A stretch of DNA of 64,000 bases from Clostridia bacterium (GTDB lineage Bacteria; Bacillota; Clostridia; Christensenellales; Borkfalkiaceae), in the NCBI GenBank assembly GCA_017465865.1, contig JAFTVF010000002.1, forward strand, positions 1 through 64,000. Direction: 5' to 3'. The notes beneath the pieces are model-generated. The model saw only the letters and a program-made list of their open reading frames with translations, was not told the DNA's origin and made no database searches. Positions 11,625 through 30,595 of the stretch are shown in pieces. The position numbers and the translations under genes were made by a program. Every line of letters starts with the position of its first letter. The first letter of the stretch is position 1.

Positions 11625-11826
11625 GTGAATTGCGCGTACCGCGCGTGAATTTTCGCTAACGCTCAGTGAATTGACGGCTATGCCGTCGTGAATTGCGTTG
11701 CTTTGCAACGCGTTATTGTAATATTTCCACAACGCAACGCTATACGTTGCATTTCACGAAAAACGAAGTTTTTCTTTTCACGCGCCGTTTGGCGCATTTC
11801 ACGCAAGGCATAGCCTTGCAATTCAC
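11625..11826 (+). repeat. 202-bp hairpin-chain repeat, copy R1
   Basis: It begins gtgaattgc and ends gcaattcac. The left half holds hairpins each introduced by gtgaatt; the right half holds hairpins each followed by tttcac. The centre is gcgttattg...caacgc. Stems include acggc/gccgt, gcgttgc/gcaacgc, gaaaaac/gtttttc and gcaaggc/gccttgc, mostly with 3-4 nt loops. It lies inside the pyr operon between pyrF and pyrK and encodes no protein. Related copies: 17550-17752, 19672-19780, 30394-30595. Confidence 0.9.
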
Positions 11827-11832
11827 TCTATA

Positions 11833-12741
11833 TCATTTGCTCATTTTGCCGATAACGCTCGACAGGTCTTTTTGCATCGCCACGCAAGCCGCGCGCGCCG
11901 CTTCGTAGTACGTACCGCCGTTTTTCTTATACGCGCACAGGATACCGCGCGAATTGTTGACCACGCCGCCCAAACCGTTCTTGCCGAAACAGCTCTTTAA
12001 CATTTCCGCATTCCCGCCCTGTGCGCCGTAACCGGGGATCAGGAAGAAGGTATGCGGCAACACCTCGCGAAGCCGAGCCGCTTCCGTGGGGTGGGTCGCG
12101 CCGACCACCGCGCCTACCGCCGAATAGCCGTATTGCCCGATCGTGCTTTCGCCCCATTTTTCTACCAGACCGCCGACGTATTCGTACATAGGCATACCGT
12201 TTTCCAGCACCATGTTCTGGATCTCCGCGCCCGAGGGGTTAGAGGTCTTGACGAGCACGAAAATACCCTTGTCGTGCTTTTCGCACTGTTCTACGAACGG
12301 CAAAATCCCGTCCGAGCCGAGATATCCGTTCACCGTTACGTAATCGGACGGGAACGCTTTCAAAGCCCCGTCGTTGACCTGCGTTTCGCCAAGGAACGCC
12401 TTGGCATAGCAGGACGCCGTCGAGCCGATGTCGTTGCGCTTTGCGTCCGCGATTACCACCAAGCCTTTTTCCGCGGCGTATTGTAAGGTTTCGTAATACG
12501 CTTTCATACCCGCCGCGCCGTACATTTCGTAATACGCGATCTGCACTTTTACGGACGGTACGATATCGTACACGTTATCGATGAGCTTTTTATTGAATTC
12601 AAGCACCCGCTCCGCTACGTCCTCGAACGTTTTCGCGCCCGCGCGCATGTCGTCGGGCAGGTAGTCGAACAAGGTGTCCAAGCCCACGCAGGTAGGGTTT
12701 TGCATCTCGATAATGCCGTTAATCAATTTATCCGTTATCAT
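11833..12741 (-). CDS. pyrF: Orotidine-5'-phosphate decarboxylase (long type)
   Basis: A 302-residue enzyme converting OMP to UMP, the last step. The active-site signature DAKRNDIGST near residues 99-108 and the length (about 300 rather than 230) place it in the longer PyrF subfamily. CVGLD at the N-terminus and PGYGAQGG near the C-terminus are conserved. Its stop lies just outside repeat R1. The start follows AAGGAGAAAC. Confidence 0.95.
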   Translation of the reverse strand: MITDKLINGIIEMQNPTCVGLDTLFDYLPDDMRAGAKTFEDVAERVLEFNKKLIDNVYDIVPSVKVQIAYYEMYGAAGMKAYYETLQYAAEKGLVVIADAKRNDIGSTASCYAKAFLGETQVNDGALKAFPSDYVTVNGYLGSDGILPFVEQCEKHDKGIFVLVKTSNPSGAEIQNMVLENGMPMYEYVGGLVEKWGESTIGQYGYSAVGAVVGATHPTEAARLREVLPHTFFLIPGYGAQGGNAEMLKSCFGKNGLGGVVNNSRGILCAYKKNGGTYYEAARAACVAMQKDLSSVIGKMSK

Positions 12742-12752
12742 AATGTTTCTCC

Positions 12753-13592
12753 TTAAAACGTTTTATCCCAATCAAAAAATCGTGCGCGTTCCTTTTTAAT
12801 GGTATTTGGCGAATGCAACGCAATTTTTCTCTTTCCGTCAAGCGTAGAAAAAAGCATAGCGTGTCCGCCGTCAAAATCCACTAAATTGTCCGTATGTATC
12901 CATTTTCCACAAAGCTTGTCCGCCGTTGCTCCAAACACCGCGTATTTATCCTTTTGGAAACTCGACCAAATCATTTTCAACTTTCCGTTTTCTTTCCACA
13001 AAAACGGTCCGTCCGTTACGTAGTTCCCCGAACCTGCGCCGTATTCCTGCACGTGCGGATTGTCCGAAGCCTTGAAAAGCACGAACGGCTCGCCCACGGG
13101 CGTAGACAAATCGTCCGAAAGCGCTTGCGCGCAAATTTCCCCGTCGTGGCATTGCACCCATTCGTGGCAAAATACGATATACGGCGTCCCGTCTTCCACG
13201 CACAACGTTCCGTCCAAACACTCCCATTCTTCAGGCGTTACGGGCTTATCGGAGAGCGGCTTAAAACGCCCGTCTAAGCTGTCGCAAACGAAAATCTGCG
13301 TTCCTCGACGTTTTCCCTCTGCTTTAAGGCTCACGAATAAATAATATTTATTTTTATATTCGTGCATTTCCGCAGCCCAATAATCGTGCGTAGCCCAAAA
13401 GTTTTCTTTTTCGCCGTCAAAAAGCAACGTCGGACCTTCAAAGTTTTCAAGGTCTTTGGAGATATACACGGAAAGTCTTGGCAACGTTCCGTACCCCTCC
13501 GTTAATTCCGTCGTACCGTACATATAGTACAAACCGTTTTTCTTATCCGTATATATAAACGGATCTCTAATACGAATTTCCGCTCTTTTCAT
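12753..13592 (-). CDS. GH43-like five-bladed propeller glycosidase inside the pyr operon
   Basis: A 279-residue protein resembling glycoside hydrolase family 43. The N-terminal RDPFIY carries the usual general-base aspartate, WAAEMHEYKNKYYLF is the blade-two signature, GTPYIVFCHEW and VTDGPFLW follow, and GGHAML lies near the end. No signal peptide is present, so it would be cytoplasmic and act on imported oligosaccharides. It sits between pyrC (7-bp gap) and pyrF (11-bp gap) and has no pyrimidine role that I know of. Its sequence is visibly less G+C-rich than the flanking pyr genes, which suggests insertion. The Shine-Dalgarno is weak, so translation may be coupled to pyrC. Confidence 0.8.
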   Translation of the reverse strand: MKRAEIRIRDPFIYTDKKNGLYYMYGTTELTEGYGTLPRLSVYISKDLENFEGPTLLFDGEKENFWATHDYWAAEMHEYKNKYYLFVSLKAEGKRRGTQIFVCDSLDGRFKPLSDKPVTPEEWECLDGTLCVEDGTPYIVFCHEWVQCHDGEICAQALSDDLSTPVGEPFVLFKASDNPHVQEYGAGSGNYVTDGPFLWKENGKLKMIWSSFQKDKYAVFGATADKLCGKWIHTDNLVDFDGGHAMLFSTLDGKRKIALHSPNTIKKERARFFDWDKTF

Positions 13593-13599
13593 GTATTCT

Positions 13600-14862
13600 T
13601 TACGCCTGATATTTTACTTCGCCGTCTACGATCGTGTATTTCACAACGCCCTGCAATTCATAACCGCCAAAGGGATTGTTCTTGCCCTTGCTGACGAATT
13701 TTTCGGGATCGATCGTCCATTTTTCGTCCAGATCCGCAACCGTGAGATCGGCAACGCCGCCCTCTTTGATCTCCCCGCCGTCAAGCCCTAAAATACGCGC
13801 GGGCGCGGCGGACATTCTGTCCGCGATCTCGCTTAAACTCAGCACGCCCTTTTTATACAGCTCGGTAATCGCGAACCCGAACGAGGTTTCAATACCGCTG
13901 ATCCCGAACGCCGCGAGGTTGTATTCCACGTTCTTGTCGTCCGCGTGGTGCGGCGCGTGGTCGGTAACGATACAATCGAGCGTGCCGTCTTTCAATCCCT
14001 CCAAGATCGCCTGTTTGTCGATCTCCTCACGGATAGGCGGGTTGACTTTCGTGTTCGTGTCGTACGTTCTCACAATCTCGTCCGTGAACGTATAATAATG
14101 CGGACAGGTCTCCGCCGTTACTTTGATCCCCGCTTTTTTCGCGTCGCGGATCATTCTCACGCCGCTGTACGTCGATACGTGGCAGATATGCACGGGCGTA
14201 TCCAGCGTTTCCGCCAAAGCGATTTCGCGCGCGATAATTACGTCCTCCGTAGCTCTTGGAATACCCTTTAAGCCCGCGATCGTCGCGCTCAGCCCCTCGT
14301 GTACCACGCCGCCGTCTACGAGATCTTTGTCCTCGCAGTGGCAAAGGCAGATCATATCATGCCCCTTTGCGTATTCCATCGCAAGCCGCATCAGCCGTGC
14401 GTTTTTCACCGCTACGCCGTCGTCGGAGATCGCCACCGCGCCCGCCTTTTTCATGCTCGCGATGCCTGCCATCTCCTCGCCTTTCAAGCCTTTCGTGATC
14501 GCGCCCACGGGGTGGATTTTACAAAGATTAACTTCCTTTGCGCGCGCTTTGATATAGGTAACGACGACCTTGTTATCGGTAACGGGGTTGGTGTTGGGCA
14601 TACAGCAAACCTGTGTAAAACCGCCTTTCACCGCCGCCCTTGCGCCGCTCTCGATATCCTCTTTGCGTTCAAAACCCGGCTCGCGCAAGTGCACGTGCAT
14701 ATCGATCAGCCCGGGGAATACGTGCTTGCCCGTAGCGTCGATCTCTCTTTCGCCGTTTGCGGTGATATTGTCCGCAATCTTGACGATCTTCCCGTTTTCC
14801 ACGAGAATATCTTTCTTTTCCACCGAGTTCTTCAAAACTACGTTGCCGTTTCTGATGATCAT
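13600..14862 (-). CDS. pyrC: Dihydroorotase
   Basis: A 420-residue zinc amidohydrolase cyclising carbamoyl-aspartate to dihydroorotate. Metal ligands are seen in DMHVHLREPG, CHCEDKDL, CHVSTYSG and TDHAPHH. The length fits the class I (Bacillus-type) enzyme. AAGGAG precedes the ATG, 13 bp after the pyrB stop. Confidence 0.96.
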   Translation of the reverse strand: MIIRNGNVVLKNSVEKKDILVENGKIVKIADNITANGEREIDATGKHVFPGLIDMHVHLREPGFERKEDIESGARAAVKGGFTQVCCMPNTNPVTDNKVVVTYIKARAKEVNLCKIHPVGAITKGLKGEEMAGIASMKKAGAVAISDDGVAVKNARLMRLAMEYAKGHDMICLCHCEDKDLVDGGVVHEGLSATIAGLKGIPRATEDVIIAREIALAETLDTPVHICHVSTYSGVRMIRDAKKAGIKVTAETCPHYYTFTDEIVRTYDTNTKVNPPIREEIDKQAILEGLKDGTLDCIVTDHAPHHADDKNVEYNLAAFGISGIETSFGFAITELYKKGVLSLSEIADRMSAAPARILGLDGGEIKEGGVADLTVADLDEKWTIDPEKFVSKGKNNPFGGYELQGVVKYTIVDGEVKYQA

Positions 14863-14875
14863 ATTTTATTTCTCC

Positions 14876-15793
14876 TTATCTAGCGTCGTTCAAAAGACAC
14901 AGCGCCGCCATACGCACGGCTACGCCCGACAGCACCTGATCTTCGATATGACTGCGCTCGTGGTCGATTACCCCGCTCGTCAGCTCCACACCGCGGTTTA
15001 CAGGCCCGGGGTGCAGAACGATCGCATTCGGTTTCGCGTATTCGAAAACACGCTCGTCCACGCCGTAGTTCGCCGCGTATTCCCCAAGCGAGGGGAAGTT
15101 GCCCGCCTGTTGGCGTTCGAGCTGGATACGCAAGCCCATAACGACGTCCGCGTTCTCGATCGCTTCCTTGCGCGAGGCGCAGATCTTCGCGCCGAGCTGG
15201 TCGATTCCCTTAGGGATCAGCGTTTCAGGCGCGTACATGGTTACCTCCGCCCCCATCGTCTTCAACCCGAACAGGTTGGATTTCGCCACACGCGAGTGCT
15301 TGATATCGCCGAGGATCGCCACTTTCAATCCCTTCAGCGTACCGAACGTTTCCCGCATCGTCAGCATATCGAGTAGTGCCTGCGTGGGATGCTCGTTCAT
15401 GCCGTCGCCCGCGTTCAAAACGCTCGCCTTTACCGTTTTCGCAAGCAGATACGGCGCACCGCCCATGGGATGGCGCATGATAATAAAATCGTTTTTCTGC
15501 GCGTCGAGGGTCTTGCCCGTGTCCACGAGCGTTTCACCCTTTGCCACCGACGAATTGCCCGCAACGATATTGATCGTCGTCGCGCCGAGGTATTTCGCCG
15601 CCTGTTCAAAACTCGTCCGCGTTCTCGTGCTGTTCTCGTAGAAGAGCACGGTAGCGGTCTTGCCTTCGAGATAGGACATCTTCTTTTCGCCCTTGCGGAT
15701 ACGGTTCTTGAATTCTTGGGCAAGATCGAGAATTTCCGTGATCTCTTCCGCGGACGCGTCGATCAGCCCCAGCAAGTCTTTTCTTTTGAGCAT
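14876..15793 (-). CDS. pyrB: Aspartate carbamoyltransferase
   Basis: A 305-residue catalytic chain joining carbamoyl phosphate and aspartate. The carbamoyl-phosphate site STRTRTSFE and the aspartate-binding HPGPVNRGVEL are intact. No regulatory PyrI chain is encoded nearby. The ATG at 15793 follows AAAGGAG. A 60-codon in-frame extension upstream lies across the leader terminator and is not coding. First gene of the operon. carA and carB are not in this window. Confidence 0.96.
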   Translation of the reverse strand: MLKRKDLLGLIDASAEEITEILDLAQEFKNRIRKGEKKMSYLEGKTATVLFYENSTRTRTSFEQAAKYLGATTINIVAGNSSVAKGETLVDTGKTLDAQKNDFIIMRHPMGGAPYLLAKTVKASVLNAGDGMNEHPTQALLDMLTMRETFGTLKGLKVAILGDIKHSRVAKSNLFGLKTMGAEVTMYAPETLIPKGIDQLGAKICASRKEAIENADVVMGLRIQLERQQAGNFPSLGEYAANYGVDERVFEYAKPNAIVLHPGPVNRGVELTSGVIDHERSHIEDQVLSGVAVRMAALCLLNDAR

Positions 15794-15820
15794 ACAAATC
15801 TCCTTTTGTGCGTAAGCCTG

Positions 15821-15886
15821 AAAAAAACGCCTTGAAACGAAACGTTCAAGACGCAGATTGCCGATGTATTGTTTCGTTTTATCGGC
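15821..15886 (-). promoter_or_regulatory. Attenuator-like leader of the pyr operon
   Basis: In the pyrB leader, read on the minus strand, a terminator has arms at 15845-15853 and 15828-15836 (9 bp, one G-U) and a U-run at 15827-15821. Upstream, GCCGAT/ATCGGC (15886-15881 and 15865-15860) can form a hairpin whose loop carries AAACGAAAC (15879-15871). That 9-mer is perfectly complementary to GTTTCGTTT (15843-15835) in the terminator loop and arm. The two pairings look mutually exclusive, as in an antiterminator switch. I see no PyrR-binding consensus and no pyrR gene. Confidence 0.65.
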
Positions 15887-15890
15887 TAAT

Positions 15891-15919
15891 ATTATACCAC
15901 TTTTTTCGTTCTTTGTAAA
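15891..15919 (-). promoter_or_regulatory. Sigma-A promoter of the pyr operon
   Basis: Minus-strand TTTACA (15914-15919) and TATAAT (15891-15896), 17-bp spacer; the start site should fall near 15883-15886, at the beginning of the leader hairpin. Confidence 0.8.
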
Positions 15920-15976
15920 GGGTTCAAGCGCAGGTTTTTGCCATCTTTTTCTTTTCCGACGAATTTTTATCAAAAA

Positions 15977-16672
15977 TCAATAGATTTTTACGAGCTTAAA
16001 CCCGACTTTATCGCAGGAAGCGAGGATATACTCCACGCCGCTACGCTCCGTTTTCAAGGGAAAATACGCCGCGCCGTGAATATGCCCGAACACCGCTTTT
16101 TCCACGCCGTTGTTTTCAAACAGCTCGGTAAACAGCGTGCTTTCGTTCTTCATTCCGAACGGCGGGTAGTGTATCATCGCAATCACCCTATCCCCGTCCG
16201 CTTTCAGCCTGTCCGCGTCCAAAAACGCGAGCCGAAACCGCTCCACCTCCCGCCGATACAGCTTTTCGTCCTGTTCGGTATACTCCGCGCTCCCTGGGCA
16301 AGTCCACCCCCGCGAGCCGACGATAACGAACTCCCCTATCTTCACCGCGTCCGTCTGTAAAAACACGAACGACTCGTCGGGCGCGCTGTCGCGGAGCTTG
16401 GTGATACCGTTCCACCAATAATCGTGGTTGCCGCGGATAAACACCTTTTTCCCAGGGAGCTTGGCAAGCTCACGCAGGTCCACGAGCGCGTCTTCGAGCT
16501 TCATCGCCCAGCTGATATCGCCTGAAATCAGCACTACGTCGCCGTCTTTTACGGTCGCGAGCCAGTCGGATTTTATTTTTTCGAAATGCCCCTCCCAGTT
16601 CCCGCCGAAGATATCCATCGGCTTGTCGGCGGTGTTGGAAAGGTGCAAATCGCTGATCGCATAAACATTCAT
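15977..16672 (-). CDS. Calcineurin-like metallophosphoesterase
   Basis: A 231-residue protein with all metal-binding motifs of the family: SDLHL (residues 7-11), GDISW near 51, GNHDYWW near 81, MIHYPP near 165 and GHIHG near 196. It should be a two-metal phosphoesterase; the substrate cannot be deduced. No signal peptide is present. It stands alone upstream of the pyr promoter on the same strand. Confidence 0.88.
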   Translation of the reverse strand: MNVYAISDLHLSNTADKPMDIFGGNWEGHFEKIKSDWLATVKDGDVVLISGDISWAMKLEDALVDLRELAKLPGKKVFIRGNHDYWWNGITKLRDSAPDESFVFLQTDAVKIGEFVIVGSRGWTCPGSAEYTEQDEKLYRREVERFRLAFLDADRLKADGDRVIAMIHYPPFGMKNESTLFTELFENNGVEKAVFGHIHGAAYFPLKTERSGVEYILASCDKVGFKLVKIY

Positions 16673-16721
16673 ACGCCTATTATAGCAGTTTTTTCCAAAA
16701 AACGCAAGGTTTTCCGCATAG

Positions 16722-16757
16722 AAAAAATCGTCGGCTGTTACGCCAACGATTTTTTTT
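16722..16757 (-). terminator. Intrinsic terminator after the cysteine-rich protein gene
   Basis: Imperfect stem aaaaatcgtcggc/gccaacgattttt beside the stop codon at 16761. It separates this gene from the metallophosphoesterase gene downstream. Confidence 0.65.
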
Positions 16758-16760
16758 CGT

Positions 16761-17426
16761 TTAGTTGTTGCACTTGCAAGAACCGCCCGAACGGGACTGC
16801 GGATACAAGGGCAATTCGAAGAACCCCGCGCAGACCTCCTGCGAGTATTCCTGTGCAGGCGGGATCACACAGTACCCGTACGTGGGTACGAGCAATTCCA
16901 CCGACATTGCGATCTTGATGATCACCGTCGCGCAAACGCTCACGATAAAGCCTTGCGTGGCGGGGTCGTATACGCCCTCGGGCGCAACCGCGCTGACCAC
17001 CGCTTTTACCGTAAACGGCATAATCGAGGGCGCGGGCACGGACAACAATACGTCGATGGGAATAGACACGGTCGCCGTCGCGCTGCCGTCCACGCCGTTC
17101 GCGTCGGTATAGAGCACTTCCACGGGCACGGAAACGGTCGCCTGAACGCGCGCGCAGTGTTTATCTGCTTGGCGTTCGATATTGAGGTTGGTTACCGTCG
17201 CTTCGCTCGCCGTCGAGCGCGCGCTGACGAAAGTCAAGGGATATGTAGGGGCTTCGGGCGAAAGATCGGTGAGGGTGAGCGTGTAATTATCGAGCTGGGT
17301 TTGTTTGATACAGGCGTCAAAGATTTTTTCCGCCTGAATACACACTTTTTCCGTCAAACCGTTTATCGGATTGCCCGTGATCGAGCAAGGACATTTGTCC
17401 GACTGGAAATTGGAATAAAAGGACAT
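16761..17426 (-). CDS. Cysteine-framed structural-type protein, possibly spore-associated
   Basis: A 221-residue protein without signal peptide. Cysteines cluster at both ends (KCPCSITGNPINGL at the N-terminus, GGSCKCNN at the very end). The N-terminal KVCIQAEKIFDACIKQTQL is reminiscent of proteins associated with clostridial spore coats. The centre is a valine/threonine/alanine-rich beta-type region (VQATVSVPVEVLYTD, ATVSIPIDVLLSVP). I cannot name a family with certainty; the spore link rests on composition and resemblance only. A strong AGGAGG precedes the ATG. Confidence 0.6.
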   Translation of the reverse strand: MSFYSNFQSDKCPCSITGNPINGLTEKVCIQAEKIFDACIKQTQLDNYTLTLTDLSPEAPTYPLTFVSARSTASEATVTNLNIERQADKHCARVQATVSVPVEVLYTDANGVDGSATATVSIPIDVLLSVPAPSIMPFTVKAVVSAVAPEGVYDPATQGFIVSVCATVIIKIAMSVELLVPTYGYCVIPPAQEYSQEVCAGFFELPLYPQSRSGGSCKCNN

Positions 17427-17549
17427 GATTTACCTCCTGTTACGAATGTATCCGAACGGCGGCTCTCGCCCGCTGTTTCGGTTTTTCGCGTAATCGTTAC
17501 TTATTATATTCTATGCCCTTTTTATATAAGAATGTGCGAGGTAAAGAAA

Positions 17550-17752
17550 GTGAATTGCAAGGCGTTGCCTTGCGTGAATTGAAAACTTCGTTTTCGTGAA
17601 TTGTACCTATCGGCGCGTGAAATGCAACGCATAGCGTTGCGTTGTGGAAATATTACAATAACGCGTTGCAGGGCAACGCATTTCACGACGGCGTAAGCCG
17701 TCATTTCACGGGCGCAAGCCCATTTCACGAATTGCATAGCAATTCATTTCAC
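17550..17752 (-). repeat. 203-bp hairpin-chain repeat, copy R2
   Basis: It begins gtgaattgc and ends tttcac. The centre (gcgttgtggaaatattac...) is the reverse complement of the R1 centre, so it lies in the opposite orientation. Hairpins include gcaaggc/gccttgc, gaaaac/gttttc, gacggc/gccgtc, gggc/gccc and gaattgc/gcaattc. The stem words differ from R1 while pairing is kept. With R3 it brackets the RNA and leucine-rich-repeat gene at 17.8-19.6 kb. Confidence 0.9.
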
Positions 17753-17800
17753 TGGCTTCACCCTCTATCTCCCCTCGAATTTTCTATATCGAAAAAATGC

Positions 17801-17829
17801 TTGATTTTTTATAAAAAGAGTGGTATACT
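17801..17829 (+). promoter_or_regulatory. Sigma-A promoter of structured RNA-1
   Basis: TTGATT 17801-17806 and TATACT 17824-17829, 17-bp spacer. The predicted start, 7 nt after the -10, is G17836, the first base of the closing stem. Confidence 0.8.
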
Positions 17830-17835
17830 GATTAT

Positions 17836-18047
17836 GCCAAACCAATTTAATAACGAAAAGCTGTTAGGGGTATTTTCTTTTTCTGAGAATACTTACCCTC
17901 TTTTTTGCACACGCTTACTATGTAGAATTTGATAAAATGCAAATTCCGCTTAGTGAACGTGTGGATATCCCTATTTCGTTAAGATTGGTTTGGCGACGAT
18001 TGGAATTTGCGTTTTTGTGCGCTGATTTTAATCGGCGCACTTTTTTT
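17836..18047 (+). ncRNA. Structured RNA-1 with terminator, upstream of an LRR lipoprotein gene
   Basis: A perfect 11-bp closing stem (17836-17846 with 17984-17994) is extended by TAACG/CGTTA (17851-17855 with 17977-17981). Inside are a hairpin at 17866-17899 and a second arm with CACACG/CGTGTG (17908-17913 with 17958-17963) capped by GAATTTG/CAAATTC (17925-17931 with 17940-17946). A tail, GGAATTTGC (18002-18010), can instead pair with GCAAATTCC (17939-17947). An intrinsic terminator (18017-18047) ends it 29 bp before the LRR gene start. It could be an attenuating leader or an independent small RNA; it matches no riboswitch class I know. Confidence 0.65.
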
Positions 18048-18075
18048 ATTTTATTTTTATTTTAGGAGGTTTCTT

Positions 18076-19602
18076 ATGAAACAAAAAACCAAACTTCTGT
18101 CCGTTCTGCTCACCCTGACAATGGGCATAGCGGCACTCGGCACAATGGCAGGCTGTGGGCTTTTTGACGACAACAAGAATAGCTCGTCAAGTAGCAACAC
18201 AACACCCTATAATGGGAACTCGTCTAACGCAAATACCGACCAAGACGACCCTATTCCCCCGACGGGAACGCAAGAGCTGAAATATACCCTTTCCGACGAC
18301 AAAACCTATTACAGTGTTACGGGCTACACGGGCACGCCAACCACCGTATACATACCCGATACGTATGAGGACTTACCTGTAAAAGAAATCTGTTACGATG
18401 CGTTCTATCATTGCAGTAGCTTAACGAGCGTAACCATCGGCAACAACGTTACTATTATCAGTGATTATGCGTTTTCAGATTGCTTCAATTTAACAAATAT
18501 TACCATCGATGAAAATAATACGGAATACAAGTCCATCGACGGTAATTTATACAGTGCGAACGAAAAAAAACTGATACAATATGCGCTTGGAAAAACAGCA
18601 ACAAAATTTACAATACCCAACGGCGTTATCTTTATCGGTAATTATGCGTTTCGTGTTTGCGATAGTTTGGAAGAAATCGTAATCCCTGACAGCGTTACGT
18701 CTATTGGCGATTCGGCATTTTCTAATTGCCTAAACTTAAGCGAAATCGTTATCCCCGACAGTGTTATCTCTATCGGTGATTATGCGTTTTGTGATTGCGA
18801 CAACCTAACAAGCGTAACAATCGAAAACGGCGTTGCCTCTATCGGTGATAATGCATTCTATAATTGTACCAGCTTAACCGAAATCGTTATTCCCAACAGC
18901 GTTACTTCTATCGGTGAACATGCGTTTTATGGTTGCAGGAGCTTGACAATTTATTGCGAAGCAACAAGCAAACCTAGTAATTGGTACCATTATAATTCTC
19001 AAAATTATCCCGTAGTATGGGATTGCAATAACAACGACGTGGCAGACGACAATTATATATATACAGTGAAAGACGGCGTTCGTTACGCACTAAAAGACGG
19101 TGTAGCAACGGTTGAAAGACAGCCAAAAAATATTAATCGGGCGAATATTCCTTCGTCAATTATTTATAAGAGCATACAATATAATATTCTTTCTATCAGG
19201 GATTATGCGTTCAGTTATTGTAGTAGCTTGACAAGCGTAGCAATCGACAACGGCATTACCTCTATCAGTGATAGTGCATTTTACGATTGCGATAGTTTGA
19301 CCGAAATCGTTATCCCCGATAGCGTTATTACTATCGGCGGTAGTGCATTCGGGTATTGTGATAACCTAACAAGCGTAACAATCGGTAATAGCGTTACTTC
19401 TATCGATAATACGGCGTTCGAGGAATGCAGTAGCTTGGCAAGCGTTAAATTTGAAGATACTTCTACTTGGTATGTTACGGACAGCTATACAAATTGGAAC
19501 AACAAAACGGGCGGTACGCAGGTAAGCGTAACGGATAACGATACTAACGCCATGTATTTTACAGATATTTACGATTACGATTATTATTGGTATAAACTGT
19601 AA
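18076..19602 (+). CDS. BspA-like leucine-rich-repeat lipoprotein
   Basis: A 508-residue predicted lipoprotein. The signal peptide ends at a lipobox (MAGC near residue 26). A serine/asparagine-rich linker follows, then two blocks of LRR_5 repeats with the recurring word SVTSIGDSAF or close variants (about residues 95-295 and 370-455). Proteins of this type act at the cell surface in adhesion or matrix binding in gut and oral bacteria. AGGAGG at 18064-18069 fixes the start. The gene lies just after the RNA-1 terminator, and it has its own terminator. Repeats R2 and R3 flank the locus. Confidence 0.88.
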   Translation: MKQKTKLLSVLLTLTMGIAALGTMAGCGLFDDNKNSSSSSNTTPYNGNSSNANTDQDDPIPPTGTQELKYTLSDDKTYYSVTGYTGTPTTVYIPDTYEDLPVKEICYDAFYHCSSLTSVTIGNNVTIISDYAFSDCFNLTNITIDENNTEYKSIDGNLYSANEKKLIQYALGKTATKFTIPNGVIFIGNYAFRVCDSLEEIVIPDSVTSIGDSAFSNCLNLSEIVIPDSVISIGDYAFCDCDNLTSVTIENGVASIGDNAFYNCTSLTEIVIPNSVTSIGEHAFYGCRSLTIYCEATSKPSNWYHYNSQNYPVVWDCNNNDVADDNYIYTVKDGVRYALKDGVATVERQPKNINRANIPSSIIYKSIQYNILSIRDYAFSYCSSLTSVAIDNGITSISDSAFYDCDSLTEIVIPDSVITIGGSAFGYCDNLTSVTIGNSVTSIDNTAFEECSSLASVKFEDTSTWYVTDSYTNWNNKTGGTQVSVTDNDTNAMYFTDIYDYDYYWYKL

Positions 19603-19621
19603 TCACAATATATAACGTATA

Positions 19622-19668
19622 CAAAAAAAGAGAGAACGAACGGTTTTGCCGTAGCGTTCTCTTTTTTT
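19622..19668 (+). terminator. Intrinsic terminator after the LRR gene
   Basis: Arms aaagagagaacg and cgttctcttttt around a 15-nt loop, followed by T-rich sequence. Confidence 0.8.
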
Positions 19669-19671
19669 ATA

Positions 19672-19780
19672 TGGAATTATTCAATAACGCGTTGCAGAGC
19701 AACGCATTTCACGACGGCGTTAGCCGTCATTTCACGCGCGGTACGCGCATTTCACGAATTGCGATAGCAATTCATTTCAC
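19672..19780 (-). repeat. Half-length hairpin-chain repeat, copy R3
   Basis: 109 bp made of the centre (tggaattattcaataacg) and one half only, with hairpins gcgttgc/gcaacgc, gacggc/gccgtc, gcgcg/cgcgc and gaattgc/gcaattc, each followed by tttcac. Orientation matches R2. The missing half would have lain where the LRR terminator now is. Confidence 0.88.
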
Positions 19781-19792
19781 TGTTCCCCCCCC

Positions 19793-20074: not shown

Positions 20075-20126
20075 CGATATCAATATATGCCTTGGAATTT
20101 TCAAATATGCCTTGCGCCTAATCCGT

Positions 20127-20154
20127 TCTATTTCCGCACGAAAGCCCGTACAAT
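20127..20154 (+). promoter_or_regulatory. Sigma-E-like promoter of the spoVB-like gene
   Basis: TCTATT (20127-20132) and CGTACAAT (20147-20154) with a 14-bp spacer resemble the sigma-E elements ATATT and CATACAAT with about one mismatch each. The ATG is 7 nt after the -10, so the transcript may be leaderless. Confidence 0.5.
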
Positions 20155-20160
20155 ATAAGT

Positions 20161-23213: not shown

Positions 23214-23234
23214 ACGAGATGTTATGAAGTTTAT

Positions 23235-23273
23235 AAAAGCTCGGCGTTCTGTTACGAACGCCGAGCTTTTTCA
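23235..23273 (+). terminator. Intrinsic terminator after pgi
   Basis: Arms aaaagctcggcgttc and gaacgccgagctttt with a 6-nt loop; also faces the convergent lipoprotein gene. Confidence 0.9.
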
Positions 23274-23277
23274 TTTT

Positions 23278-24762: not shown

Positions 24763-24788
24763 TGTGCATACCTCCGTAAAATGCCGTT

Positions 24789-24925
24789 AAAAAAGTGTGC
24801 CTTGCAAGCAAAGCACACCCCGAACGTACTTCACTTGTTGTCACACAAATTCACCGATACAGGGGAAAAGAAGTACACGTTCGCATCGTTGTACCCCTAA
24901 TATCGGAAAATTTAATTTGCGTGAC
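24789..24925 (-). ncRNA. Structured RNA-2 with terminator, upstream of a lipoprotein gene
   Basis: It starts with a 12-bp closing stem (24925-24914 with 24851-24840, one G-U pair), then CCGATA/TATCGG (24906-24901 with 24859-24854), AGGGG/CCCCT and an apical hairpin (24894-24873). A tail, GAAGTACGTTC (24832-24822), can pair with GAACGTGTACTTC (24882-24870) of the apical arm, leaving a 2-nt bulge. A terminator with 10-bp arms (24818-24795) and a U-run (to 24789) ends it, 27 bp before the lipoprotein ATG. Architecture as in RNA-1. Attenuating leader or independent RNA. Confidence 0.65.
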
Positions 24926-24931
24926 GAATAC

Positions 24932-24960
24932 AGTTTAGCACACTCTTACTAAATTGTCAA
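24932..24960 (-). promoter_or_regulatory. Sigma-A promoter of structured RNA-2
   Basis: Minus-strand TTGACA (24955-24960) and TAAACT (24932-24937), 17-bp spacer; the predicted start is G24925, the first base of the closing stem. The remaining gap to 25096 shows nothing else I can support. Confidence 0.8.
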
Positions 24961-25096
24961 CAATTTCTCACCCGAAACACGTATACTTTTTTCTTGTACG
25001 GGCTATACTTACAGCGGAATATATCGGAACTCGAACGCTCGCTTTTTACATATACTGCATTAAGGGAGTGTGTTCGGTTTTCAAAAGAGGTGCTGT

Positions 25097-25450
25097 ATGT
25101 TGAACGTAAAACGCGGTGAATTGTATTATGCGGATCTGTCCCCCGTCGTGGGGAGCGAGCAGGGCGGGATCCGTCCCGTGCTCGTCGTACAAAACGACGT
25201 CGGGAATAAGTATTCCCCTACCATCATCGCCGCCGCGGTAACGAGTAAAATCAACAAAGCCAAATTACCCACGCATATCGAACTCCCCTCCGCCTACGGG
25301 CTTGCCAAAGACAGCGTTATCTTATTAGAGCAGATCCGAACGCTGGATAAACGCCGCTTAAAAGAGCGGATCGGCGAATTACCGCCCGCCACGATGCTGC
25401 GCGTAAACCGTGCCATTTTAATTAGCCTCGGATTTCCTGTAAATAATTGA
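25097..25450 (+). CDS. MazF/PemK-type endoribonuclease (EndoA-like), without adjacent antitoxin
   Basis: A 117-residue protein closely matching the EndoA/MazF pattern: [21 protein letters not shown] at the N-terminus, [17 protein letters not shown] and [13 protein letters not shown]. Active members cleave mRNA at short single-stranded sites. The usual upstream antitoxin gene (about 90 codons) is absent: the 330 bp before it hold only RNA-2 and its promoter. Start at 25097 after aaaagaggtg. It may be tolerated through an antitoxin elsewhere or a non-toxic role. Confidence 0.9.
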
Positions 25451-25474
25451 TTTTGTGATAAAAAAACTTAAATT

Positions 25475-25518
25475 CCGCAGACGGTTTTTCTGTATAATGG
25501 GAGAAAAATTGTCTGCGG
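25475..25518 (+). promoter_or_regulatory. spoIIE promoter inside a 17-bp inverted repeat
   Basis: Arms 25475-25491 and 25502-25518 match at 15 of 17 positions and enclose a 10-nt loop that carries the -10 box TATAAT (25493-25498). The right arm overlaps the gcggagg Shine-Dalgarno of spoIIE and is followed by a T-run. No good -35 is seen, so an activator may be needed. Readthrough RNA from mazF would fold into a terminator-like hairpin hiding the Shine-Dalgarno; transcripts begun in the loop would not. Confidence 0.65.
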
Positions 25519-25528
25519 AGGTTTTTTT

Positions 25529-27847
25529 ATGCGCGTTCGCAAAAAAATCGATTTTCTGCGTTTGTTTCTCTATCTGCTTCTGGGGCTTGCTGCGCTGTGC
25601 CTGTTCTTTATCGGCGACAACGCCGAGCCTTTCTCCATCGCGCTTTTATACGGTATGCTCGCCTCGGGGCTTTCCCCTTTCCCGTCGGCTTTTCTTTGCG
25701 TTTTGCCTGCGATCTTCGGCGGGAGCGTTCGATTGTTTCTCGTCTACTTAGCGCAAGCCCTACTCGTCGTTTTCGGGTTCTTTCTGCAAAGCAAGATACG
25801 GCGGACGGCGTTTGGAAAGATCGGAGCGTTTTCTATGCTCTTTCTTGCGTTTGCGTTTACGCTGTTCGTCGGGTTTGCGCCGTTCAAAGCCTACGCGTTG
25901 CCCTTTTCCGTCGGGCTTGTCTTGGAAGCGTTACCGCAAAAAATCATCGTTTCCGCGACCATGTTCTTGCTTTCCGCCATTTTCGCCGTAGCATTGCGGG
26001 CGCTTTTGAAAAAATTCCTGAAATGCCGATTGCGAAGCGACGAAATGGTATTTTCCGTCTTTTTTCTCCTGCTCGTGGGCGTGGGCGTGTGTCGATTTTT
26101 GGGCGTGAACGCGTACATGGGTATCTCTATCTTCGTTATTCTGCTGTTTGCCTGCGCAACGCAAGACGCGTCCGCGCTTTTTTGCGCGTTTATGCTCTCC
26201 CTCCCGCCCATGCTCGTTGCACGGCTCTCGCCCGAGAAATTTTTCTTTTACGGCGCGGCGATCGTACTGTTTATGAAATCGGGTCGGCTCGCCGCCGCTT
26301 GCGCTACCTTACTCGTGTTTTTCGCATACGGATATTTCGAGGGGATCTACGACTACACGACGGCACGCCTCGTACAATCCCTGCTCTCCGCGTTATTGCC
26401 CGCGCTTCTTTTCGTGCTGATCCCCACTCCGCTGATCCGCGCGATGGAAAACCGACTTATTTTCTACCGCGAAAAACATCTCTCGCGCGTAGCGATCAAC
26501 CGCAACCGCGCCGCGATCGGGGAAAAGCTGTTCGAGATCTCCGCGGTATTCCGCGAGATTGAAACCACGTTCGCCTCGCTCGGCACGCACGAAGCGGAAA
26601 AAGGCGCGAAAGAATACATACGCTGTTGCGTTATCGAGGACGCTTGCAAAAAATGCGCGCACTTTGCCGAGTGCCGAAAAAAAGGTCTGGACGGGGCTTT
26701 GGACAAGCTGATCGAGGTAGGCTGTCTGAAAGGCAAAACCAACCTGATCGATATCCCCCGCGCGCTTGCGGATATCTGTGCGAACCAAAGCGGTATCTTA
26801 TACGCCGTCAACCGACAACTGACCGAGTATCGGAAATATATGCTGGAAACGGAAAACGCGGCGAACGGACGGGCGTTGCTTGCCAGCCAAGCGCAGGGCG
26901 TGAGCGAGATCTTGAAAAATCTTGCCTTGGAACAAAGCGAGCCGTTACATATCTATACGGACAAAGAACGCGCGCTGAATATCGCGCTGCTTGGCGCAGG
27001 GATCGTCTGTTCGGAAGTGCTCGTATACGGCGACGAGGATAACCCTACCCTATCGCTCATCACGTTCGGCAGGGCAGACGTTAAACAAATCGCCGCCGTC
27101 GCTTCGCATTTGTTCGGCGCGCCGATGATCATTTCCGAACGACTGACGTTAAGCCAAGATAAATTTTGCTGTATCTTACGCAAAAAGCCGTATTTCGACG
27201 CGGCGTTCGGAGTGGCGACCCTTTCGAAATCAGGAGAAAGCGCGAGCGGCGACACCCATTCCGTGATCAAGATCGACGAGCGGAAATTCCTCGTCGCACT
27301 CTCCGACGGTATGGGCAGCGGCGAATACGCGCGACGGATCTCCGAAAGCACCATTTCCCTACTCGAAAGTTTTTACCGCGCGAAAATGAACTCCAACCTC
27401 GTTCTATCCACCATCAACAAGCTGTTGACCTTTAATAAGGAAGAAAGTTTCGCCTGTGTGGATATCGCGGTCGTGGATCTCGACAGCGGCAGCGCGGATA
27501 TCGTGAAGATCGGCTCGCCATCGGGCTTTATCCTTTCGGGAAACACCGTCAAGGTATTGGAAAGCACTTCCTTGCCTTTGGGTATTTTGGACAATCTCCG
27601 ACCCGACGGGGCGAGCTATAATCTGCTTGAAAATGATATTCTATTGTTTTTAAGCGACGGGATCGCCGACGCGTTCGGGTCTGCCGCCGACTTATACGAG
27701 GTTTTACGTTCCATTCCTCTGCACAATCCCCAACAGCTTGCGGATAACTTACTCGACGCGGCGCTGAAAGCCTACGGCGGCGTAGCGAAAGACGATATGA
27801 CTGCCGTTGCCGTGAGGCTGTTTAAGAGCGAGCCCGCCGTCGCATAA
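25529..27847 (+). CDS. spoIIE: Stage II sporulation protein E
   Basis: A 772-residue membrane phosphatase that dephosphorylates SpoIIAA and so activates sigma-F in the forespore; it also sits at the asymmetric septum. About ten N-terminal membrane helices (residues 10-310) precede a central regulatory region and a C-terminal PP2C domain. Metal-binding aspartates lie in ALSDGMGSGEYA (about 590) and LFLSDGIADAF (about 705). A cysteine cluster CCVIEDACKKCAHFAEC lies near 370. Its presence makes the organism a spore former. The start follows gcggagg. Confidence 0.95.
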   Translation: MRVRKKIDFLRLFLYLLLGLAALCLFFIGDNAEPFSIALLYGMLASGLSPFPSAFLCVLPAIFGGSVRLFLVYLAQALLVVFGFFLQSKIRRTAFGKIGAFSMLFLAFAFTLFVGFAPFKAYALPFSVGLVLEALPQKIIVSATMFLLSAIFAVALRALLKKFLKCRLRSDEMVFSVFFLLLVGVGVCRFLGVNAYMGISIFVILLFACATQDASALFCAFMLSLPPMLVARLSPEKFFFYGAAIVLFMKSGRLAAACATLLVFFAYGYFEGIYDYTTARLVQSLLSALLPALLFVLIPTPLIRAMENRLIFYREKHLSRVAINRNRAAIGEKLFEISAVFREIETTFASLGTHEAEKGAKEYIRCCVIEDACKKCAHFAECRKKGLDGALDKLIEVGCLKGKTNLIDIPRALADICANQSGILYAVNRQLTEYRKYMLETENAANGRALLASQAQGVSEILKNLALEQSEPLHIYTDKERALNIALLGAGIVCSEVLVYGDEDNPTLSLITFGRADVKQIAAVASHLFGAPMIISERLTLSQDKFCCILRKKPYFDAAFGVATLSKSGESASGDTHSVIKIDERKFLVALSDGMGSGEYARRISESTISLLESFYRAKMNSNLVLSTINKLLTFNKEESFACVDIAVVDLDSGSADIVKIGSPSGFILSGNTVKVLESTSLPLGILDNLRPDGASYNLLENDILLFLSDGIADAFGSAADLYEVLRSIPLHNPQQLADNLLDAALKAYGGVAKDDMTAVAVRLFKSEPAVA

Positions 27848-27857
27848 AAACAACGCG

Positions 27858-27893
27858 AAAAAACAGCTCTTTGCGGTTTGCAAAGAGCTGTTT
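27858..27893. terminator. Bidirectional intrinsic terminator
   Basis: Arms aaacagctcttt and aaagagctgttt between convergent spoIIE and the ATPase gene. Confidence 0.82.
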
Positions 27894-27915
27894 GATTTAC
27901 TCGATCAGCCGAGAA

Positions 27916-29313
27916 TTATTCTTCGGTCTTTTCTTCTTCCGCGGGAGCTTCGTCTGCAACGATTTCGTCGTTAGCGGAAGTAGCCTGTTTCGCAGCAACG
28001 CGTTTTGCCATTCTTGCGTCCTTTCTTGCCTGCGCTTTCATTTCTTTCGTAATGATACGCGCCGCGTCGATACGGGAACGCATTTCCTGAGGTGTAGGAG
28101 GTACGAACGCCGAACCTTCTGCATTCTCTTCGATAACTTCGTAGCCCTCGTCTCTTTCAAGGATCGAAGCTTCCGTTTCGCCGTCGAACATGTGGATATG
28201 ATGCGCGTCGAATGCAAGCTCGATAATGTCGTTGAGCGCAACGACTGCACGGCTGGAAATCTTCGCGATCATCTGCGTGGAGTTGTCGATAACCGAGCTT
28301 TCCTTGCCTTCGTGGTCAAGTTCGCAGTAGATCTGCGTTTCAGCACCGAGTTTTTCGATAACTTCGATACGCGCTTTTACAACGGTGTCGGGCGAGTTGG
28401 AAATGAACATCTGATCCTGATGGATATCTTCGGGACGAACGCCGAGCGTGATCTGTTTACCGGTGTCGAGGTATTCGTTGATGTTCTTAATTCTTGCCGC
28501 AACGCTCTTAGGAAGCAAAATCTTGTTGCCGCCCGTGAAGTTGACGTAGATCTTACCGCCCTCGCTCGTAAGCGTGGATTCTTTGAAGAAGTTCATCTGA
28601 GGCGTACCGATGAAGCTTGCAACGAACAGGTTTACGGGATAGTCGTAAAGGTTCTGCGGGGTATCAACCTGCTGCATGAAACCGTCTTTCATAACGACGA
28701 TACGCGTACCCATCGTCATAGCCTCGATCTGGTCGTGCGTAACGTAGATGAACGTCGTAGCAAGACGAGCGTGAAGCTTGGAAATTTCCGTTCTCATCGA
28801 AGCACGGAGCTTTGCGTCGAGGTTGGACAAAGGTTCGTCGAGCAAGAATACCTTGGGTTCGCGAACGATCGTACGGCCGAGCGCGACACGTTGTCTTTGA
28901 CCGCCGGACAAAGCCTTGGGTTTACGGGACAGATAGTCGGTGATACCGAGGATCTCAGCCGCCGCTTTTACCTTTTGGTCAATGATTTCCTTGGGTACTT
29001 TACGGAGTTTCAAACCGAACGCCATGTTGTCGTATACGGACATATGAGGATACAACGCGTAGTTCTGGAATACCATCGCGATGTCTCTGTCCTTGGGAAC
29101 GACGTCGTTTACGAGTTTGCCGTCGATATAGAGTTCGCCCGAGGAGATTTCTTCCAAACCTGCGATCATACGAAGGGTCGTGGATTTACCGCAACCGGAA
29201 GGTCCTACGAGTACGATGAATTCTTTATCTCTGATATCGAGACAGAAATCGAATACTGCTTGTACACCCGAGGGGTATACTTTGTTAATGCCTTTCAGCA
29301 AAAGTCCTGACAT
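27916..29313 (-). CDS. MsmX/UgpC-type ABC transporter ATPase with extended tail
   Basis: A 465-residue ATP-binding subunit of the kind shared by several CUT1 sugar importers. Walker A is GPSGCGKS (about 38-45), the signature LSGGQRQRV (about 136) and Walker B VFLLDEP; a TOBE-type C-terminal domain with GVRPEDIH follows. It is about 90 residues longer than typical MsmX, owing to a basic/alanine-rich then acidic tail (KQATSANDEIVADEAPAEEE). No permease or binding protein is encoded nearby, fitting a shared energiser. A TTGTAA-N17-TAAAAT promoter precedes it. Confidence 0.92.
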   Translation of the reverse strand: MSGLLLKGINKVYPSGVQAVFDFCLDIRDKEFIVLVGPSGCGKSTTLRMIAGLEEISSGELYIDGKLVNDVVPKDRDIAMVFQNYALYPHMSVYDNMAFGLKLRKVPKEIIDQKVKAAAEILGITDYLSRKPKALSGGQRQRVALGRTIVREPKVFLLDEPLSNLDAKLRASMRTEISKLHARLATTFIYVTHDQIEAMTMGTRIVVMKDGFMQQVDTPQNLYDYPVNLFVASFIGTPQMNFFKESTLTSEGGKIYVNFTGGNKILLPKSVAARIKNINEYLDTGKQITLGVRPEDIHQDQMFISNSPDTVVKARIEVIEKLGAETQIYCELDHEGKESSVIDNSTQMIAKISSRAVVALNDIIELAFDAHHIHMFDGETEASILERDEGYEVIEENAEGSAFVPPTPQEMRSRIDAARIITKEMKAQARKDARMAKRVAAKQATSANDEIVADEAPAEEEKTEE

Positions 29314-29442
29314 AATCTTTTTCCTCCAAATGGATTATCAATTTTCATTACTACTATTTTACTATACTTTGCAAAAAATTACAATAGGCAAAATCACCAA
29401 AGTTGTCCTTTTCCTTTGTATACTTTGCACAACTTCCGCTAT

Positions 29443-30369
29443 TTACGGCAGTATTTTGCCCGTAGACATATACAAACCGTACCATTCTTCGCGCGTAAGC
29501 TCGATATCCCCCGCCTTGCACAGCGCGCGCATACGCTCGGGCGAGGTCGTGCCCGTGATCACCTGCTTGAACGCGGGATGACGGAGTGTCCACGCAAGCG
29601 CGATCGCTTCGGGCGCGCAGTCGTATTGCTCTGCGAGACGGTTGAGCTCTTTATTCAGCTCGGGGAATTTCTCGTTGCCGATAAACACGCCCTCGAAAAA
29701 GCCGTATTGCAAGGGCGACCAAGCCTGTAACGCGATCCCGCTTGCACGCGCGTATTCTAAGGCGTTGCCCGCGCGCGTAACCGACTCGTCTTTGTACATA
29801 TTGACGTTCAGCCCCGCGTCTACGGGCAGGGTATGCCCGAGCGAAAACTGCATCTGATTTGCGACGATCTCCACCCCGAACGCCCTGAAAAGCCGCATCT
29901 GCTCGGCAGAAAAATTACTCACGCCGAACGCGCGGACCTTGCCCTGCGCGCGGAGTTTTTCAAAGGCTTCCGCCACTTCCTCCGGCTCGACGAGGGTATC
30001 GGGACGGTGCAACAACAGAATATCGATATACTCCACGTTCAGGCGTTTGAGACTACCCTCTACGGACGACAGGATATAGTCTTTTGAAAAATCGAAACGG
30101 TTGATCCTGCCGTTCTCGTCCTTGCGGATACCGCATTTCGTCTGTAAAATGTAGTCTTTGCGCGGAATTTCGAGATCGCGCATCGCAACGCCAAACACCT
30201 TTTCGCTGTTCCCGCCGCCGTAAACGTCCGCGAGGTCGAACATATTCACGCCCGCGCGCAACGCCTCGACGATGACTTCTTCCGTCTGGCGCAAGGGCTT
30301 ATCCGCGATCCGCATACAGCCCATTACGATCCCCGACGCGTTCACGCCGTGTAAATTACAGTACTTCAT
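29443..30369 (-). CDS. Aldo/keto reductase (YdhF-like)
   Basis: A 308-residue NADPH-dependent oxidoreductase with a TIM-barrel fold. The catalytic tetrad is visible: Asp and Tyr in DLADVYGGG, Lys in LQTKCGI and His in LLHRPD. The cofactor loop ends TGTTSPERM. The arrangement MRIADKPLRQTEE is like that of YdhF-type enzymes. The physiological substrate is unknown. GGAGG precedes the ATG. It is alone, followed upstream by repeat R4. Confidence 0.9.
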   Translation of the reverse strand: MKYCNLHGVNASGIVMGCMRIADKPLRQTEEVIVEALRAGVNMFDLADVYGGGNSEKVFGVAMRDLEIPRKDYILQTKCGIRKDENGRINRFDFSKDYILSSVEGSLKRLNVEYIDILLLHRPDTLVEPEEVAEAFEKLRAQGKVRAFGVSNFSAEQMRLFRAFGVEIVANQMQFSLGHTLPVDAGLNVNMYKDESVTRAGNALEYARASGIALQAWSPLQYGFFEGVFIGNEKFPELNKELNRLAEQYDCAPEAIALAWTLRHPAFKQVITGTTSPERMRALCKAGDIELTREEWYGLYMSTGKILP

Positions 30370-30393
30370 ACTCTGTCCTCCTTGATATTTTCA

Positions 30394-30595
30394 GTGAATT
30401 GAATTGCTTAGCAATTCGTGAATTTTCGCTAACGCTCAGTGAATTGGGCTTCGCCCGTGAATTGCGTTGCCACAGCAACGCGTTATTGGATTATTCCATA
30501 ACGCAACGCTTTGCGTTGCATTTCACGAAAAACGAAGTTTTTCATTTCACGCGCCGATAGGCGCATTTCACGCAATGCAACGCCTTGCATTTCAC
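30394..30595 (+). repeat. 202-bp hairpin-chain repeat, copy R4
   Basis: Same orientation as R1, beginning gtgaatt and ending tttcac. Hairpins include gaattgc/gcaattc, gggc/gccc, gcgttgc/gcaacgc, gaaaaac/gtttttc, gcgcc/ggcgc and gcaa/ttgc types. The centre is gcgttattggattattccataacgc. It fills the gap between the aldo/keto reductase and yigZ genes. Confidence 0.9.

Follow-up and report, generated by a model that had tools for sequence, protein, structure and literature searches.

The element considered here is a non-coding repeat of chained hairpins, four copies of which lie in a 64,000-nucleotide stretch of a Clostridia bacterium genome (contig JAFTVF010000002.1 of assembly GCA_017465865.1; "the window" denotes this whole stretch). 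Among described systems, the intervening sequences of 23S rRNA, with their S23/IVP proteins, are hairpin-forming inserts, and the element resembles them in forming hairpins and, in some relatives, in its tie to the protein family PF05635. It differs in that the window copies are non-coding, lie between protein genes and chain four hairpins per arm; no rRNA family match was found in the window, where all four copies adjoin protein-coding genes or open reading frames (ORFs).

Repetitive extragenic palindromic (REP) sequences are defined by a GT[AG]G tetranucleotide 0-2 nt 5' of a hairpin (PMC6006769). Together with bacterial interspersed mosaic elements (BIMEs), REP doublets (REPINs) and REP-associated tyrosine transposases (RAYTs), they share with our element an intergenic location, a high copy number, a hairpin with a 5' foot, occurrence as singlets and inverted doublets and, in some cases, a linked gene (PMC6006769, PMC3116915). 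The element differs in its four chained hairpins per arm, its freely exchanged stems, a foot other than GTRG and a linked gene that is not a Y1 transposase. The ends of IS200/IS605 elements such as IS608 and ISDra2 also contain hairpins, which are recognised there, and their orientation bias arises from use of the lagging-strand template during replication; single arms of our element show a comparable bias in some genomes. Our element carries no transposase gene and has four hairpins per arm, and no guide or cleavage sequences are known for it (PMC5371812). Yeast mitochondrial GC clusters are likewise mobile palindromic modules that merge and shuffle, but they are organellar, have a main type of 42 nt and putative target-site duplications, and lack a word-separated chain (PMC4478555). 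The STAXI motif consists of tandem small structures suspected of acting as single-stranded DNA; it differs in forming pseudoknots near genes for DNA-handling proteins instead of dispersed inverted arrays (PMC2864571).

One arm of the element already has a name. Gut-1 (RF01706), a 77-position model that corresponds to a single arm, was classed as a noncoding RNA in 2010, from human gut sequences only (PMC2864571). This was the only paper on Gut-1 or RF01706 as an RNA in the literature searched, and similar repeats surfaced there only in papers on REP/REPIN sequences, HUH enzymes and mitochondrial palindromes (the search did not combine PF05635 with repeats). An earlier note on this DNA knew of no described repeat with such a layout, a statement that needs qualifying given that one arm is in Rfam, although Gut-1 is catalogued there as a small RNA (sRNA) and not as a repeat.

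Here, we show that the element belongs to a real and widespread family of structured repeats, part of which already bears an RNA name, and is a kind of interspersed palindromic repeat. It is marked by unusual modular chains, by an orientation tied to replication in two families and by a linked gene for a four-helix-bundle protein. We consider it probable (roughly 0.6) that the window holds non-autonomous copies of a PF05635-linked interspersed repeat that spreads via single-stranded DNA at replication forks.

Architecture and folding of the element

The earlier note had reported four related elements, each full copy a chain of seven to nine hairpins introduced by gtgaatt in one half and followed by tttcac in the other. 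All four were found where it had placed them, with word pairs and folding far above shuffles, and three are full copies, but the stretch 19672-19780 is a half element comprising one arm and a centre piece. The full plan spans about 200 bp and consists of four units of the word GTGAAWT plus a hairpin, a central hairpin and four inverted units. One recurrent module, TTCGCTNNCGCTCA, forms no hairpin of its own. The gtgaatt of one half and the tttcac of the other are a single word read from the two strands, which makes the element as a whole a large inverted repeat built of polar units. In the window, GTGAATT-(8-30)-GTGAATT occurs 8 times (mean of 100 shuffles, 0.04) and ATTTCAC-(8-30)-ATTTCAC 9 times (mean 0.01).

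Because the words of the two arms are complementary, a single strand is able to fold into a 'fishbone', in which nested word-word helices (GTGAA with TTCAC), flanked by a hairpin on each side, form a chain of four-way junctions. Relative to dinucleotide shuffles, the three full copies folded as single-stranded RNA gave z = -7.2 (element 1), -6.8 and -5.7 (element 2), and one copy folded as DNA gave z = -5.8. The nested word-word trunk is present in the DNA fold of element 4. Across 17 copies, the minimum-energy folds contain two to four word-word helices as DNA and one to three as RNA, and the consensus fold has 51 pairs, 10 of which changed on both sides. Word-to-word distances across the centre in the window's genome fall into classes of 60-67, 88 and 103-106 nt. 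At the sixth base of the word, neighbours in one arm mostly agree (132 of 150), but the two arms do not match each other (40 of 100), and trunk pairing at all seven word positions was accordingly rejected at position 6. Read in the word's direction, the loop mostly starts with T, in 76 of 96 of the genome's own distinct inserts and 137 of 180 of those of relatives, counting inserts with at most one non-Watson-Crick pair.

Exchangeable stems in a dispersed family

The assembly that contains the window (1.42 Mb in 19 contigs, 72.7% complete) holds 178 word-spacer-word modules (88 + 90), compared with 1 for the reversed control, and 25 Gut-1 matches, 8 of them over the cut-off; at least 50 bits is reached by an arm in two of the four window elements. 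The 171 distinct modules read include 20 of the TTCGCTNNCGCTCA type and one near-variant. In the 150 modules outside this TTCGCT type, 795 of 831 pairs are Watson-Crick and 127 stems are perfect. Among 79 distinct inserts, TTCGCT type included, 53 stems are perfect, compared with a mean of 0.7 (max 3) for letter shuffles and of 24.3 (max 37) when 3' halves were swapped between inserts of equal length. We count 19 perfect stem types in this genome. The suggestion of the earlier note that structure is kept while stems change is borne out by these pairs and by the two-sided changes in the consensus fold, and so is its idea of a structured family dispersed through the genome and its relatives. The free exchange of stems shows conservation of pairing and not of stem sequence.

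We parsed 34 elements in this genome, 25 of which have four words in both arms. The A and B arms draw on different stem repertoires, and only a few stems are used at each position. In 24 of 28 position pairs, two stems occur in all four combinations, and the 25 full copies represent 24 distinct stem combinations. Whole modules thus appear to be reshuffled among copies by recombination or conversion at the words, the alternative being repeated independent replacement of stems.

The same genome also harbours another fishbone family, built on GCGATAT and with its own CGCTNNCGCTC module (34 + 28 modules, 0 in reversed controls), which is absent from the window's contig. We noticed that the spread of the first family is uneven: among the matches listed, no GTGAAWT pair lies on contigs C1, C2, C4, C5, C7, C8, C11 or C12, and the initial 20 kb of C17 and of the 286-kb contig C16 likewise showed no elements.

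Distribution among relatives and insertion

Within the genus, 35 of 57 genomes have Gut-1 matches (0-39 per genome); a family sample has them in 91 of 301 genomes and 14 of 18 genera, and an order sample in 99 of 396 genomes and 50 of 142 genera. These counts are lower bounds, given a limited number of candidates scored per genome (up to 67, 15 and 11, respectively). Only 1 of 14 control genomes (E. coli) gave a match, below the cut-off. In contrast to the description of Gut-1 in PMC2864571, it is here one arm of a dispersed DNA repeat, often an inverted pair, with matches in these 50 genera. Among 28 stretches retrieved from named genomes with the centre pattern, 4 have arms of at least two hairpins, namely one from 'Clostridiales bacterium SIG410', two from 'Clostridia bacterium RGIG6424' (sheep rectum) and one from RGIG8634 (water deer cecum).

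Relatives follow the same plan with other words (GTGATAT, GTGAAGT, ATGAAAT or GTTATAT). A word-blind detector made 41 element calls, including overlapping fetches of one element, and in 40 of them both arms carry the same word class, sometimes one base off.

At the pyrF-pyrK junction, examined in 30 of 52 genomes with a pyrF match, the element is present in 2 of 30 species (the window's and G040), while the gap measures at most 13 nt in 18 of 30. This is an insertion relative to related species. On the pyrF tree, none of 200 bootstrap trees places the two carriers together on one side of a branch; one origin is still compatible with the well-supported branches. By eye, several species have other repeat- or hairpin-rich DNA at this junction (L117, L120, L131, L135), which may be a general repeat hot spot.

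No target-site duplication of at least 5 nt was found in 33 elements, which is in line with IS200/IS605 elements, and 32 of 35 elements in the window's genome lie outside ORFs (overlap of no more than 60 bp with an ORF of at least 100 aa). A miniature inverted-repeat element of a DDE transposon was rejected, there being no duplication and no transposon with such ends recognised among the ORFs within 1.5 kb.

Element 2 had no match in phage and plasmid records. At least 120 IMG/VR stretches contain the word pattern, and 2 among the matches listed (L218, L245) hold a genuine-looking array. L245 (IMGVR_UViG_650377966_000001) is a full two-arm element with a terminator and a tRNA-like sequence next to it; its contig is listed as viral but may be host DNA flanking a prophage. 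In G017 (L085-L093, L102), we saw several palindromic repeats, AAAACTTAACCATGGTTAAGTTTT among them, that alternate with Gut-1 arms in a dense mosaic, in many cases close to the end of a contig.

A PF05635 gene linked to the arms

BLAST clustering of the ORFs near elements revealed, at four loci to begin with, a cluster that belongs to PF05635, the '23S rRNA-intervening sequence protein' (TIGR02436, 'four helix bundle protein'), in all seven proteins scanned; the other clusters were repeat-derived ORFs, syntenic or overlapping-locus genes and BspA-type leucine-rich-repeat proteins. PF05635 proteins are widespread and unexplained, and the title of a solved homologue (PDB 2rld, E 3.6e-38) assigns no function. 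A profile of eight PF05635 proteins matched 20 ORFs in 19 of 517 loci, some of them overlapping fetches; with duplicates removed, 14 genes from 13 genomes are left. Of these, ten lie within 100 bp of an arm; random placement in these loci would give 1.15, and none of 200,000 simulations exceeded 7. Of 36 stretches picked by Gut-1 matches alone (L477-L512), 4 contain a PF05635 gene (L491, L495, L504, L509). Searching with the protein alone led to three relatives on viral contigs; in the closest of them (L527), a pair of fishbones immediately precedes the gene on its 5' side. In G040 and G557, a + arm and a - arm enclose the gene, which takes the position of the central hairpin, and in G127 it is enclosed by two near-identical fishbones. 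The earlier note had proposed mobilisation by a factor in trans, which remains plausible, as the window copies encode no protein and relatives carry this linked gene.

The main rival for the linkage, which we regard as fairly improbable, is that the PF05635 gene is a passenger, with arms at its 5' end acting as promoter or control region of a repeat that is moved by something else. In line with a control region, in all five genes with a start codon read, the distance from it to the beginning of the nearest upstream arm is 34-69 nt, and most arms read have no PF05635 gene nearby. Against it stand the genes enclosed by two arms or two fishbones, as well as the fact that the protein family takes its name from another hairpin-forming insertion, the 23S rRNA intervening sequence.

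We also noticed tandem short repeats beside PF05635 genes in unrelated phyla, on a Nostoc plasmid (L532), where XisH/XisI and integrase genes adjoin, and on a Bernardetia plasmid (L533).

Orientation relative to replication

Two genomes of family f4, the complete G655 (one contig, 3,390,518 bp) and its sister G568, carry 63 and 57 Gut-1 matches. As far as read, these matches are mostly single arms of four RTGAWAT-plus-hairpin units with a tail like GTGANAGANACTT (from 35 readable tails). Across 34 sampled stretches of G655, GC skew switches sign at about 0.98 and 2.75 Mb. Among the matches listed, 44 of 48 are directed with the fork in G655 and 42 of 48 in G568, the latter count being less independent since the G568 replichore boundaries were partly set from the matches. 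A separate arm detector found 57 arms in the fetched stretches, 6 of them in inverted pairs, and 47 of the 51 others are fork-directed, compared with 273 of 475 ORFs co-oriented with the fork. Where a neighbouring ORF (within 400 bp) opposes the fork, the arm sides with the fork in 37 cases and with the ORF in 2. As the arms are fork-directed, the word strand lies in the lagging-strand template. In a second family, f11 (G542, G665, G552), 18 of 22 single arms agree with the local skew.

Polar sequences such as KOPS and Chi are known replication-polar chromosomal signals, and the arms could similarly be a host-beneficial signal whose orientation is selected since strand matters, an explanation that we find unlikely. 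The strong fork polarity in f4 speaks for it, as does the fork bias of single words. Among the listed G655 matches, none of 48 lies at 0.76-1.19 Mb (inferred terminus) or 2.50-2.86 Mb (inferred origin), many related species have no match and the inverted-pair form has no overall polarity, all of which argue against such a signal. From the position map of G655 and G568, a KOPS-like signal was judged unlikely.

Y1 transposases as an unlikely driver of the repeat

A REP-type transposase (RAYT/Y1) had been put forward in the earlier note as an example of the mobilising factor, and the units could indeed be REP sequences proper, moved by a host RAYT of the Y1 HUH type. In favour of this, they are dispersed, intergenic, high-copy hairpins (with the 32 of 35 outside ORFs mentioned above), they have a conserved foot 5' of the hairpin, they occur singly and as inverted pairs, and their fork orientation is IS200/IS605-like. 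Their words, however, are GTGAAWT, GTGATAT, GTGAAGT, ATGAAAT, GTTATAT and GCGATAT, none of which provides the foot GT[AG]G, and no Y1 gene is encoded by or associated with them. The Y1 family PF01797 occurs in 21 of 57 genus genomes without association with the element (both 12, element only 23, Y1 only 9, neither 13; Fisher P = 0.78). In the order, it is absent from 13 of 19 listed carriers searched and present in 6 (a 20th genome searched, G322, is not a listed carrier). No units were found in the examined flanks of 10 genus Y1 loci, and of 16 Y1 loci elsewhere in the order, one (G397) has an arm within 1.5 kb, separated from it by a tpiA-like gene. Given the missing association and genes that are not flanked by units, RAYT/Y1 was rejected as the driver, and we consider the REP reading very unlikely.

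As a side observation, genomes of family f4 encode Y1 transposase-like proteins of ~250-320 aa with an HTH-like (helix-turn-helix) C-terminal end, recognised by eye, whose genes lack flanking hairpin arrays (L415, L421, L414, L416).

Noncoding RNA or DNA repeat

If Gut-1 were a functional noncoding RNA, the arms would be sRNA genes or untranslated-region elements and the copies paralogous RNA genes. Rfam and the 2010 paper (PMC2864571) class it in this way, the RNA folds are very stable, and 20 of 35 elements in the window's genome lie between co-directional ORFs, none overlapped, and are probably transcribed. An RNA function on the Gut-1 strand should entail that G-U pairs are tolerated there. 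They are not favoured: G-T versus A-C mismatches number 10:9 in the genome's own modules, 8:7 in its distinct inserts and 2:13 in the distinct inserts of relatives. Furthermore, the arms of one element lie on opposite strands, their orientation tracks the fork and not the genes, and copy number is patchy, from 0 to 39 matches per genome within one genus. To judge from the sequences, the wobble ratios, inverted arms and fork polarity argue against an sRNA, which we hold to be highly improbable, and annotation pipelines that name Gut-1 an sRNA gene are probably misleading.

Retro-mobility, i.e., reverse transcription of an arm RNA into the lagging-strand template, where some group II introns retro-insert, would fit the fork orientation and those half elements, some in number, that directly follow terminator-like hairpins, but it is hardly credible with no PF00078 reverse transcriptase in G655, G568, G433 and G397 and none in 13 of the 19 carriers (6 have it), and it was rejected for the f4 genomes, as neither G655 nor G568 has one.

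A possible life cycle and the points against it

RAYT/Y1 and reverse transcriptase do not fit as the DNA cutting and joining activity. With Y1 unassociated and reverse transcriptase missing in most carriers searched, the PF05635 protein would be the best candidate for a trans-acting partner, a role suggested by its linkage. In the reading that we prefer, a PF05635-linked repeat spreading at forks, the basic unit is a polar arm of four word-hairpin modules, present as single arms in some families and, in the window's genus, as inverted arm pairs with a central hairpin. Some relatives have the PF05635 gene beside a fishbone or between its arms, and the window copies would be non-autonomous versions. 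The PF05635 protein may recognise folded arms in trans, and copies may insert, through a putative single-stranded intermediate, into intergenic DNA exposed as a single strand at the replication fork, with the word-hairpin strand in the lagging-strand template. Hairpin modules would be reassorted when copies undergo exchange, presumably recombination, at their words.

Several observations weigh against this reading. Exact empty sites were not among the pyrF-pyrK results. Linkage to PF05635 was measured in loci chosen for arms, and 4 of the 14 genes are not close to one (385 bp in G568, 811 bp in G415, 6.4 kb for a second gene in G433, and no arm in the stretch read in G655). Two of the three viral-contig relatives (L528, L529) have no array, and neither do four plasmid relatives have a word-hairpin array of this plan, two of these showing simple-looking tandem short repeats (4 of 29 records, all distant). 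No PF05635 gene was found in ~0.5 Mb (overlaps included, roughly one third) of the window's genome, and no nuclease, transposase or DNA-cutting activity is known in this protein family. As for orientation, only 15 of 35 arms agree with local skew in G433 (family f23), a genome of weak skew in which 33 of 35 arms belong to the GCGATAT family; at a local |skew| of at least 0.03, agreement is 10 of 12 in f11 and 5 of 10 in G433. Even GTGAAAT words that stand alone favour the fork direction (79 of 113), so that the fork bias of the arms, although it exceeds that of lone words (Fisher P = 0.0013), is smaller than it looks. Finally, the ORF predictions behind the gene-orientation comparison are crude.

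More tentatively, and with less confidence than for the reading above, the family might represent a distinct class of mobile repeats, defined by exchangeable hairpin chains, family-specific words and mobilisation at forks aided by PF05635 four-helix-bundle proteins, with 23S rRNA intervening sequences as one branch of a wider set of PF05635-dependent hairpin elements. An orphan Rfam 'sRNA' becomes a family of repeats whose life cycle can be tested, and PF05635 proteins gain a function to test. Fork orientation without Y1 or reverse transcriptase in most carriers searched makes the question of what moves the repeat concrete.

Copies in the window and their surroundings

The copies and related features are listed in Table 1. 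Element 1 lies between pyrF (11833-12741, - strand) and a pyrK-like gene (10853-11608, -), and element 4 between a UPF0029 gene (30615-31247, -) and an aldo/keto reductase gene (29443-30369, -).

Table 1 Positions of elements, arms and associated features (window coordinates unless a contig or genome is named).
Feature	Position	Strand	Details
Full element 1, A arm to B arm	11625..11826	+	Words at 11625, 11645, 11666, 11688 / 11751, one degenerate, 11796, 11820
Central hairpin of element 1	11710..11735	+	GCGTTATTG...CCACAACGC
Full element 2, B arm first on +	17550..17752	-	Words at 17550, 17574, 17596, 17617 / 17680, 17703, 17722, 17746
Arm of element 2, Rfam Gut-1 (RF01706)	17675..17754	-	51.0 bits
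Terminator-like inverted repeat abutting half element 3	19628..19671	.	AGAGAACG...CGTTCTCT plus T run; by eye
Half element 3, A arm and centre remnant	19672..19780	-	Words at 19706, 19729, 19749, 19774
Arm of element 3, Rfam Gut-1	19701..19782	-	52.9 bits
Full element 4, A arm to B arm	30394..30595	+	Words at 30394, 30418, 30439, 30457 / 30520, 30544, 30565, 30589
GCGATAT family example	C6:9418-9591		L015/L335-L340
GCGATAT family example	C6:121315-121514		
GCGATAT family example	C10:62079-62275		
PF05635 gene within 100 bp of an arm	G009, G040, G053, G127, G509, G433, G665, G574, G600, G557		Broken frame in G665

A gene for a BspA-type leucine-rich-repeat protein (18007-19602) stands beside half element 3, and similar genes occur near elements elsewhere, probably because this gene family is large. 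In the window at 19628-19780 as well as in L057, L293 and L294, a half element or arm directly adjoins a terminator-like hairpin or the 3' end of a tRNA, which suggests that such hairpins and tRNA 3' ends are preferred sites of half elements and arms.

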